A DNA stretch of 64,000 bases from Granulicella arctica. GTDB lineage: Bacteria > Acidobacteriota > Terriglobia > Terriglobales > Acidobacteriaceae. A program made the position numbers and the translations under genes. The stretch spans positions 806,001 to 870,000 of the forward strand of contig NZ_JACCCW010000002.1 of NCBI RefSeq assembly GCF_013410065.1, read 5' to 3'. Below are positions 9,349 through 11,997 of this stretch, piece after piece (position 1 is the stretch's first letter; each line of letters begins with the position of its first letter). The notes beneath the pieces were generated by a model. It saw only the letters and a program-made list of their open reading frames with translations. It made no database searches and was not told the origin of the DNA.

Positions 9349-9513
9349 ATTCTTTCTCAACTCCATCGGGGGACGGTGGTGAGTGATTCTTGCGGCGAGC
9401 AATCCGAAATACAGTGTAGCATCCGCCGAGGGTTATTTATGCACAGATTCTGGGGCACACCTGCTTTGGGGGGTATGAAGCGGGGCGGAAGAACTTCGCA
9501 TGGCGGTGATGGC

Positions 9514-10368
9514 GTGACATACTCACTACGAATGTCGGTTCTGGTCTTCACGCTGCTTGTCTTTATCGGCTCGTTCGTGGCTGGTCTGCTGGGAGCTCTA
9601 ACCGGGCTTGGTGGCGGGGTGGTGCTGGTCCCGCTGCTGACGCTGGTCTTTCATGTGGACCTGCGCTATGCCATCGGTGCATCGCTGATCTCGGTGATTG
9701 CGACCTCTTCGGGTGCGGCAGCAGCGTATGTCCGCGAAGGCTTCTCGAATGTGCGGATCGGGATGTTTCTCGAAGTGGCGACGACCTTTGGGGCTGTGTT
9801 TGGGGCGTTCCTCGCCACGAGGACGCCAACGCGGTGGCTCGCAATTGTCTTCGGAGTGGTGCTACTGTACTCGGCCTATCTCTCGTGGCGTCAGAAGGGG
9901 GATGCGCCGCCGGGTGGCCCGGTCAATCCATGGTCGGACCGGTTGCGGATGAGCGGATCGTTTCCTGTGAACGGCAAAGAGCAGTCATACACCGTGCACC
10001 ATATCTCCGGTGGCTTTGCGACGATGTTCGGCGCGGGAACGCTCTCCGGCCTTCTTGGGATCGGCTCGGGTGCGGTGAAGGTGCTGGCGATGGACAAGGT
10101 GATGCGCATCCCCTTTAAAGTATCGACGACGACAAGCAACTTTATGATCGGGGTGACCGCTGCGGCGAGCGCGGGAATCTATCTGCATCGTGGATATATC
10201 GACCCGGGCCTGGCGTTTCCGGTGATGCTTGGGGTGCTGGCGGGTTCGCTGTTGGGTGCAAAATTGCTGGCGAAGGCACGCGTCTCCATGTTGCGCACCG
10301 TATTTACCTGGGTCATCCTCGCGCTGGGTGTGGAGATGATCGTGAACGGATGGCTGGGGAAGGTATGA
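9514..10368 (+). CDS. Sulfite exporter TauE/SafE-family permease
   Basis: The 284-residue polytopic membrane protein has about eight helices. It contains two copies of the family motif, 'GALTGLGGGVVLVPLL' near the N-terminus and 'SGLLGIGSGAVKVLAMD' in the second half. The family moves sulfite, organosulfonates or other small anions across the inner membrane. GTG 9514 was chosen because it follows a weak GGTGATGGC. ATG 9532 ('MSVLVFTLLVFIG') is an equally plausible start, and the open frame further upstream runs into the tRNA leader. It overlaps the next gene by the 4-bp ATGA, so the two are translationally coupled. Confidence 0.85.
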   Translation: MTYSLRMSVLVFTLLVFIGSFVAGLLGALTGLGGGVVLVPLLTLVFHVDLRYAIGASLISVIATSSGAAAAYVREGFSNVRIGMFLEVATTFGAVFGAFLATRTPTRWLAIVFGVVLLYSAYLSWRQKGDAPPGGPVNPWSDRLRMSGSFPVNGKEQSYTVHHISGGFATMFGAGTLSGLLGIGSGAVKVLAMDKVMRIPFKVSTTTSNFMIGVTAAASAGIYLHRGYIDPGLAFPVMLGVLAGSLLGAKLLAKARVSMLRTVFTWVILALGVEMIVNGWLGKV

Positions 10369-10769
10369 GCCGAGAGGCTGCGAACGCGAGCAGGAGTTCC
10401 ACCTTCGATGACCAGAGGATGGAATCGATCATGGGGCGGCTGCTGCAGGTTGGCGTGCTGCTCTCGTCGGCGTGCGTGCTGGTGGGCGGCGTGTTGTATC
10501 TGCGAGCCCATGCTGGTGGAGTCGCGAACTATCGCGTGTTTGCGAGTGAGCCTGCCAATCTGCGCACGTTGAAAGGGTTGATGGTAAGCCTGTGCGCGGG
10601 ACGGCCATCGGCGATCATCCAGCTTGGAGTGCTTCTACTGATCGCGACGCCGATTGCGCGAGTAGTGTTCGCGGCGTTCTCTTTCGCGATGGAACGGGAT
10701 CGGCTCTACGTGGCGATCAGCCTGACGGTGCTTGCCGTGCTGATATTTGGACTGGTGCACAGCTCTTGA
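10365..10769 (+). CDS. DUF1634 membrane protein, partner of TauE/SafE
   Basis: The 134-residue protein has three predicted membrane helices (about 27-47, 80-100 and 110-130) and the pattern of DUF1634 proteins, which are regularly encoded right after TauE/SafE permeases. The ATG overlaps the TGA of the permease (ATGA at 10365-10368), so the two should be made in fixed proportion. It is presumably an accessory subunit of the permease. No biochemical function is known. Confidence 0.82.
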   Translation: MSREAANASRSSTFDDQRMESIMGRLLQVGVLLSSACVLVGGVLYLRAHAGGVANYRVFASEPANLRTLKGLMVSLCAGRPSAIIQLGVLLLIATPIARVVFAAFSFAMERDRLYVAISLTVLAVLIFGLVHSS

Positions 10770-10842: not shown

Positions 10843-11997
10843 ATGATGGATCGGCGCATCTTCTTGCGAAATGTGAATCTTGCGGCAGCTTCAGCCGCAC
10901 TAAGCGGATGTATGCGCAGGCCGGTGGGTGCGGCGCTCGGAGCCGGGATGCTGCCGGTGAATCTGCCGGAGACGGCATGCGGGCTGCCACCAGTACGGGT
11001 GAGCGCAGAGCGGGAGATAAGGACCGTGGTAGGGCTGCGGCCGTTCCGTCCGTCGGGGTTCCGCGTGGCGACCGAGATGGTGGGCGAGACGAAGGTCGTC
11101 CACAACTATGGACATGGCGGCGGAGGGATCACCCTGAGCTGGGGAACGTCGAAACTCGCCGCCGATCTTGGACTGCCGGGACACGTCGGGTCTGTAGCGG
11201 TGCTTGGTTCAGGAGCAGTCGGGCTGGCTACGGCACGACTCGTGCAGGAGGCCGGGTTCGACGTGACGATATACACGAAGGCGCTGCCGCCGGAGACGAC
11301 CTCGAACATCGCCGGTGGGCAGTGGTTCCCAGCGAGCGTGTATGACCCGGATAAGACGCTGACGCCGGAGTTCACGGAGCAGTTCAAGGCAGCGGCGCGA
11401 TATGGGTATCGGCGATACCAGATCATGACCGACCCGAAGTACGGGATTCGATGGATGCGGAACTATGTCCTGTCGGATACGCCGTGGCATTCGCCGCTGG
11501 AAGGCGGGCAGTTCGGGCTGATCCGGGACCTGCTGCCGGAGATCAAAGAGTTGCAGTCAGGCGAGCATCCGTTCGCGCAGAAGTATGTGCGACAGTACGA
11601 CGGAATGATTGTGGAGCCGCCGATCTATCTGCCCGCAATGCTTACAGACGTTCGAATTGCTGGCGGAAAGATTGTAGTGCGGGAGATCAAGTCGCTGGAC
11701 GAGGTGCAGATGCTGCCACAGAAGCTGATCTTCAATTGCACAGGCTTGGGAGCGAAGGCGCTGTTTGGAGATGAGGAGCTGACGCCGGTCCGCGGACAGT
11801 TGACCTTCCTGGTGCCGCAGCCGGAGGTGACCTATGCGACCTTGTACGAGAACACGTATATGTTCTCTCGGCGCGATGGGGTGCTACTAGGCGGAACGCA
11901 TGAGGAAGGAAGCTGGGATCTGACGCAAAATATCGAGACGAAAACAGCCATTCTGAAGAAGCAGGCAGAGTTGTTCGGTGGAATGCGTCGCTGTTAG
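10843..11997 (+). CDS. Circularly permuted D-amino-acid-oxidase-like flavoprotein (Tat lipoprotein)
   Basis: The 384-residue protein starts with a Tat signal (DRRIFLRN) and the lipobox LSGC (Cys23). Residues 61-105 ('VVGLRPFRPSGFR', then 'VVHNYGHGGGGITLSWG') match the C-terminal substrate and FAD segment of D-amino-acid oxidases. The FAD-binding Rossmann motif, normally N-terminal, comes only afterwards (GSGAVG, 122-127). The protein then ends shortly after 'LLGGTHEEGSWDL', where ordinary family members would continue into the segment found here at the front. All parts are present once, in permuted order, so it could be a functional periplasmic FAD oxidase of amino acids or similar amines. 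ATG 10843 or 10846 may be the start. Confidence 0.78.
   Translation: MMDRRIFLRNVNLAAASAALSGCMRRPVGAALGAGMLPVNLPETACGLPPVRVSAEREIRTVVGLRPFRPSGFRVATEMVGETKVVHNYGHGGGGITLSWGTSKLAADLGLPGHVGSVAVLGSGAVGLATARLVQEAGFDVTIYTKALPPETTSNIAGGQWFPASVYDPDKTLTPEFTEQFKAAARYGYRRYQIMTDPKYGIRWMRNYVLSDTPWHSPLEGGQFGLIRDLLPEIKELQSGEHPFAQKYVRQYDGMIVEPPIYLPAMLTDVRIAGGKIVVREIKSLDEVQMLPQKLIFNCTGLGAKALFGDEELTPVRGQLTFLVPQPEVTYATLYENTYMFSRRDGVLLGGTHEEGSWDLTQNIETKTAILKKQAELFGGMRRC

Follow-up and report, generated by a model that had tools for sequence, protein, structure and literature searches.

Is the open reading frame (ORF) at positions 10843–11997 of the window, the whole 64,000-nucleotide stretch of Granulicella arctica DNA that was analysed (contig NZ_JACCCW010000002.1), a D-amino-acid oxidase (DAO) whose domains stand in swapped order? 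The preliminary description of this locus had proposed that it encodes a DAO-like flavoprotein in which the segment that normally closes the fold, here called the cap, precedes the Rossmann motif for flavin adenine dinucleotide (FAD). The ORF was found at this place with its motifs in that order, VGLRPFRP (residues 63–70) and HNYGHGGGGITLSWG (residues 87–101) lying ahead of GSGAVG (residues 122–127). Very probably, the product is a homologue of the DAO family that has undergone circular permutation in nature; the permutation is well supported by sequence, by a confident model and by two-sided trees.

Domain order and predicted structure

The ORF protein was compared with PDB chains using phmmer. 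Two stretches of the oxidase 6rkf were matched in swapped order: query residues 117–374 with residues 14–267 (independent E-value 3.1e-19), and query residues 45–108 with residues 267–332 (1e-8). The other printed alignments, 8hy5 and 6kbp, also consisted of two stretches in swapped order. Since both pieces abut at residue 267 of 6rkf, the rotation looks complete, without visible loss or doubling. The best stretch of the NCBIfam DadA model NF001933 covered query residues 62–109, equivalent to profile positions 352–398 of 429 and thus near the C-terminal end of the model, and that of Pfam DAO covered residues 118–378. The distance from the end of a cap profile to the start of a core profile was 9–11 residues in 104 of 120 permuted proteins.

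These data are consistent with the earlier statement that nothing is duplicated and nothing is missing: the break lies between helix 364–379 and strand 58–68, and no ORF with two caps, as expected of a duplicated-cap intermediate, was found in 150 loci. A short sequence doubled at both ends of the chain, which each carry a Cys close to the break, was also considered, but on visual inspection it was rejected; the tail seems to stop where the head starts. In natural circular permutants the old termini are joined by a short linker and the new termini lie between two secondary-structure elements, and the ORF protein is the same in both respects.

An AlphaFold2 model built on the deeper alignment A2 (115 rows) was confident. 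In this model the cap comprises strands 58–68, 74–80 and 83–89 and helix 99–110. By sequential structure alignment the DAO fold was found for the modelled core, residues 113–380, which also aligned with the front of the FAD unit in solved structures of glycine and sarcosine oxidases and of the FAD part of MnmC. The superposition on DAO suggested earlier was made with this sequential aligner, so that the canonical place of residues 61–105 in space is inferred. Among the 50 structure-alignment entries shown, none was a solved chain of permuted order.

No description of a permuted DAO was found in the literature searched (PMC12502724 included), which consisted mostly of titles and the beginnings of abstracts and held few subscription journals. 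In the available portions of the sources, "permuted" refers in PMC2916828 to monoamine oxidase and electron transfer flavoprotein, and the permutations mentioned in PMC7503967, PMC13359353 and PMC8366655 are not of DAO.

Occurrence and phylogeny of the permuted order

Relatives were taken from three protein lists (query-based, best 120 of 7794; normal-order, best 120 of 7376; based on the divergent locus protein L148, best 120 of 2774) and from genome loci, of which the first set kept 80 of 575 relatives. The 115 ORFs from which the cap and core profiles were made come from these very loci and are mostly permuted, but the profiles recognise both orders. Proteins were considered distinct when they differed in a 180-residue core stretch; counts from loci and lists may overlap, and this overlap was left in.

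The survey of homologues for both domain orders recommended in the preliminary description showed that both exist. Among 150 loci, 139 ORFs were permuted and 11 normal (120 and 7 distinct proteins, respectively), one short ORF had only the core and none had two caps. With the two profiles run separately, all 120 close proteins of the query-based list were permuted, as were 118 of the 120 distant proteins listed with L148 as query. The close proteins listed were 76–100% identical to the query, its own protein P0002 included; with this entry excepted, full-length relatives were at most 83% identical. The 80 loci were labelled as Acidobacteria, alpha- and gammaproteobacteria, Verrucomicrobia, Gemmatimonadetes and others. 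At E 1e-8, 35 of 297 genomes of Acidobacteriota matched (26 permuted, 7 normal, 2 undecided). Matches were also obtained in 18 of 349 genomes of Pseudomonadota, every one colinear with the permuted query, and in 2 of 145 of Verrucomicrobiota. The signal-less protein P0312 as query matched 12 of 388 genomes of Pseudomonadota at E 1e-30, 11 of them shared with the earlier search. The genome of the window itself gave one match to the permuted query; three genomes of Acidobacteriota (G041, G253 and G277) gave three to four each.

In a phylogenetic tree with 68 proteins, 46 of them permuted and 22 of normal order, the order had to change only once, at a branch supported 100/99; an 86-row tree of wider scope, with 73 permuted and 13 normal rows, gave the same result. 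Both trees were unrooted and were built without glycine oxidase or any other outgroup. The 68 rows of the first were obtained from 245 by thinning with an identity threshold of 62% for permuted and 58% for normal-order rows, with L045, L059, L146 and L147 left out; 6rkf and the other PDB rows, being taken from printed alignments, are without their ends. For the second, new rows were thinned at 68%, normal rows were reduced from 22 to 13, and L146 (without a signal label) and L147 were added; all 46 permuted rows of the first tree received the Tat label collectively, among them L019, which has the Arg pair but falls below the hydrophobicity cut-off. From these sequences it looks as if the permutation arose once. 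The normal order is likely the ancestral state, because Rossmann-first alignments with the modelled core were obtained for glycine and sarcosine oxidases and for the FAD part of MnmC.

Active-site residues and comparison with known oxidases

A multiple alignment of 46 permuted rows, 20 bacterial normal-order rows and human D-amino-acid oxidase (DAAO) was put in the normal order. The column of Arg66, equivalent to human Arg283, which we take to bind the substrate carboxylate, holds Arg in all 46 permuted and all 20 normal-order rows, and in 115/115 rows of A2. The equivalents of human H307, Y309, G310, H311, G312, G313 and G315 are invariant in the same 46 and 20 rows. The column of Tyr339 (human Tyr228) holds Tyr in 34/46 permuted and 19/20 normal-order bacterial rows, and G122, G124 and G127 of the FAD fingerprint are invariant in 115 rows. 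Tyr331 (11833–11835) and Arg343 (11869–11871) are each conserved in 114 of the 115 rows of the permuted alignment.

According to the part of PMC9844085 available, conservation throughout DAAOs is limited to the GxGxxG fingerprint and the Arg-Pro pair and does not extend to the Tyr, and bacterial DAAOs have GxRPxR and YGHGGxG in common. The ORF protein shows GxRPxR with the carboxylate Arg (GLRPFR, residues 64–69), YGHGGxG (residues 89–95) and the DAO core fold. The GxGxxG motif, placed at the N-terminus of bacterial DAAOs in the same source, lies here at residues 122–127, after the cap, and the protein was therefore filed as a permuted relative and not as an ordinary DAAO. The conserved motifs, together with those statements, make family-level chemistry a fair inference, and the ORF protein is probably a permuted relative that works like DAO.

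The ORF protein shares with D-aspartate/D-amino-acid oxidases (6rkf, 1kif, 2du8) the fold of residues 113–380, the FAD fingerprint, the Arg aligned with Arg283 and the YGHGGxG loop, but it differs from them in having the cap first and an N-terminal Tat (twin-arginine translocation) lipoprotein signal, in a Phe at the position of Gln53 and in the uncertain position of Tyr224. Bacterial normal-order DAAO-like proteins, such as those of Chloracidobacterium (P0123) and Rubrobacter (P0182), share GxGxxG, the Arg-Pro pair and YGHGGxG, and commonly the Tyr aligned with Tyr228; they differ in their core–cap order, in their length (mostly 309–335 amino acids, the longest listed 362) and in the absence of a Tat motif from all 120 proteins listed. 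The glycine oxidase ThiO is Rossmann-first, and its model TIGR02352 gave 55.4 bits on the ORF protein, below the NCBIfam cut-off of 250.8.

Tat signal and export

A Tat signal with a lipobox ahead of the permuted protein, as described previously, is present by motif (twin Arg, hydrophobic stretch and lipobox Cys23). Arg4 and Arg5 are conserved in at least 90% of 115 rows; Gly22 and Cys23 are invariant in 24 aligned close sequences, and the column of Cys23 holds Cys in 96/115 wider rows. Tat export and lipidation at Cys23 are predicted from these residues for the clade of the query. The twin Arg with a hydrophobic stretch was detected in 116/120 permuted proteins from the loci (shuffled control, 8/120), with a lipobox in 65 (strict) or 83 (relaxed). 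No Tat motif was detected in the 7 normal-order proteins from the loci, nor, by another pattern, in the 120 of the normal-order list; all these counts are pattern matches and not the output of a trained predictor.

Of the 118 permuted proteins among the 120 distant ones of the L148-based list, 96 had no signal-like start by the thresholds used, 19 had a Tat-like start and 3 another hydrophobic start. This mostly signal-less permuted set formed its own clade in the 86-row tree (support 100/100), with a Tat-bearing group inside it that counts as one lineage, since L148 and P0242 (named Bradyrhizobium diazoefficiens) are identical. In L147, a member of the signal-less clade, six codons separate the upstream stop from the Met, and there is therefore no room for a signal. 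Two changes of the Tat state are enough on this tree; when the normal-order proteins are taken as lying outside, the permutation appears, by the fewest-changes reading, to have come first and to have been followed by two separate gains of a Tat signal.

As a rule, the suggested tie between permutation and export found no support: a signal-less permuted clade exists, so permutation needs no export and the link is weakened. A looser link may exist, because no Tat motif was found in normal-order proteins; the permutation could have eased the gain of an export signal at the N-terminus.

Alternative explanations

Several points weigh against a permuted oxidase that works like DAO. AlphaFold2 run from 24 close sequences reached a predicted local distance difference test score (pLDDT) of only 34.7, and that the moved cap packs in its canonical place is a prediction, the superposition being sequential. 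Phe162 stands at the position of human Gln53. Human Tyr224 is without a partner in the query by multiple alignment; pairwise phmmer pairs it with Tyr335, whose column holds Tyr in only 19/115 wider rows. To judge from these residues, the substrate range may differ from that of human DAAO. Glycine oxidases can carry the same motifs, as stated in the part of PMC9844085 consulted.

It could be argued that there is no permutation and that a DAO-cap-like piece was fused to the N-terminus of a protein that lost its true C-terminal cap, perhaps leaving an inactive oxidase. The best Pfam DAO stretch omits the N-terminal piece, and the sequential aligner left the cap unplaced, but that piece matches the DAO cap itself in 6rkf and in the DadA profile, has the cap Arg, the YGHGGxG loop and the strand-strand-strand-helix pattern, and the cap is retained in all classified permuted proteins of the 150 loci; fusion with truncation is very improbable. 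An assembly or sequencing rearrangement that moved a piece of the gene, named beforehand as a finding that would overturn the permutation, is excluded for practical purposes by the same order in relatives from independent assemblies and several phyla (120 distinct proteins from the loci, the 120 closest listed, one of them the query's own, and 118/120 distant ones). That the permuted order is ancestral and the normal one derived is compatible with unrooted trees, but it is hardly likely when Rossmann-first is the general order, in glycine and sarcosine oxidases and the FAD part of MnmC and also in eukaryotic DAAO and D-aspartate oxidase (DASPO). Selection of the permutation for export, by which a surface N-terminus was freed for a Tat lipoprotein signal, would account for the Tat-like pattern in 116/120 permuted proteins from the loci against 0/7 and 0/120 of normal order, but it is unlikely in view of the well-supported, mostly signal-less permuted clade with its single Tat lineage, the later gains of Tat by fewest changes and the lack of room for a signal in L147.

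Proposed mechanism and significance

Under circular permutation, the cap that closes the chain of normal DAOs (strand-strand-strand-helix) would have moved as a unit to the N-terminus, bringing along the substrate Arg and the YGHGGxG loop. A short linker would connect it with the strand that opens the Rossmann unit for FAD, and the chain would now begin and end in what was the loop from the last helix of the core to the first strand of the cap. With the cap packed in its usual place, the protein would work like DAO: a D-amino acid would give a hydride to FAD, the imino acid would then hydrolyse, and the reduced FAD would be reoxidised by O2 or by a membrane acceptor. With its Tat signal and lipobox, the enzyme should be exported in folded form and reside in the cell envelope as a lipoprotein lipidated at Cys23; D-amino acids from wall turnover or from the surroundings would be plausible substrates there. 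A speculative and quite unlikely extension is that permuted DAO-like proteins form an ancient line with cytoplasmic and envelope branches, that the rotation freed the N-terminus of the cap for a Tat anchor, and that the envelope branch is a D-amino-acid dehydrogenase linked to the respiratory chain and not a peroxide-producing oxidase.

If true, a textbook flavoenzyme fold would here have undergone a clean and widespread natural circular permutation, which seems to have become fixed a single time and to have been retained across several bacterial phyla. Since close homologues occur in either order and retain the main active-site motifs, they allow a direct test of how chain order affects folding, the loading of FAD and export. 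The case also reveals an annotation gap: Pfam and automatic names say DAO and miss the cap in front, and a rule expecting an N-terminal GxGxxG would overlook permuted DAO-like proteins.

Gene features and neighbourhood

Table 1. Features of the permuted DAO-like ORF, with positions in the window.
Feature	Position	Strand	Remarks
Whole ORF, permuted DAO-like flavoprotein	10843..11997	+	384 amino acids plus stop
Tat-type signal peptide with lipobox	10843..10911	+	RR at residues 4–5, LSGC at 20–23
Displaced segment (cap, residues ~53–112), C-terminal in normal DAOs	10999..11178	+	three strands and a helix
Arg66, equivalent to Arg283 of human DAAO	11038..11040	+	multiple alignment
HNYGHGGGG loop (residues 87–95), normally near the C-terminus	11101..11127	+	alignment, invariant positions
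Short join (residues ~111–116), cap helix to first Rossmann strand; old C- and N-termini fused	11173..11190	+	
Core (residues 117–380): FAD Rossmann unit and substrate domain	11191..11982	+	
GSGAVG FAD fingerprint (residues 122–127)	11206..11223	+	
Tyr339, aligned with human DAAO Tyr228	11857..11859	+	multiple alignment; also paired by pairwise phmmer
Last helix (364–379); new C-terminus where the cap would come next in normal DAOs	11932..11979	+	model, ends of core alignment

In the window the gene is preceded by TauE (PF01925) and DUF1634 genes and followed by a Gfo/Idh/MocA gene. The TauE/SafE-type gene and then the DUF1634 gene occupy positions 9376–10769, ending 73 bases ahead of the DAO gene. 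These three neighbours had no match at 1e-20 in the stretches of the relatives, and the HAD gene of the window had matches in L002–L004 only. No family-wide conserved neighbour of the permuted DAO gene was found over the 80 loci compared, among which the window counts twice (W and L001).

The permuted DAO gene lies downstream of a Proteasome-family (PF00227) gene in 10 of the 80 loci (L012, L014, L023, L029, L031, L033, L035, L046, L053 and L070), nine of which are labelled as genera or families of Sphingomonadales. In all of these but L023 an AAA ATPase gene follows downstream, on the same strand and mostly adjacent. One neighbour gene of each type was scanned with Pfam, giving Proteasome and AAA, respectively; the neighbours in these loci are recognisable as hslV-like and hslU-like genes, and the permuted DAO gene is placed as if inserted in the hslVU operon. 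L035 (Verrucomicrobiaceae UBA2429) and L037 (Sphingomonadales UBA2369) appear to share one DAO gene, and L037 was removed as a duplicate; L035 has the sphingomonad hslVU context, and one of the two labels is probably wrong.

Two further relatives were atypical. P0327 is permuted, with 545 amino acids, about 200 of them extra N-terminal residues, and a hydrophobic signal-like start, perhaps a fusion or a gene-calling error. The permuted match of L146 (genome G527) contains an in-frame TAG, with almost nothing ahead of the cap in the remaining frame, and is perhaps a decaying gene or a sequencing error.
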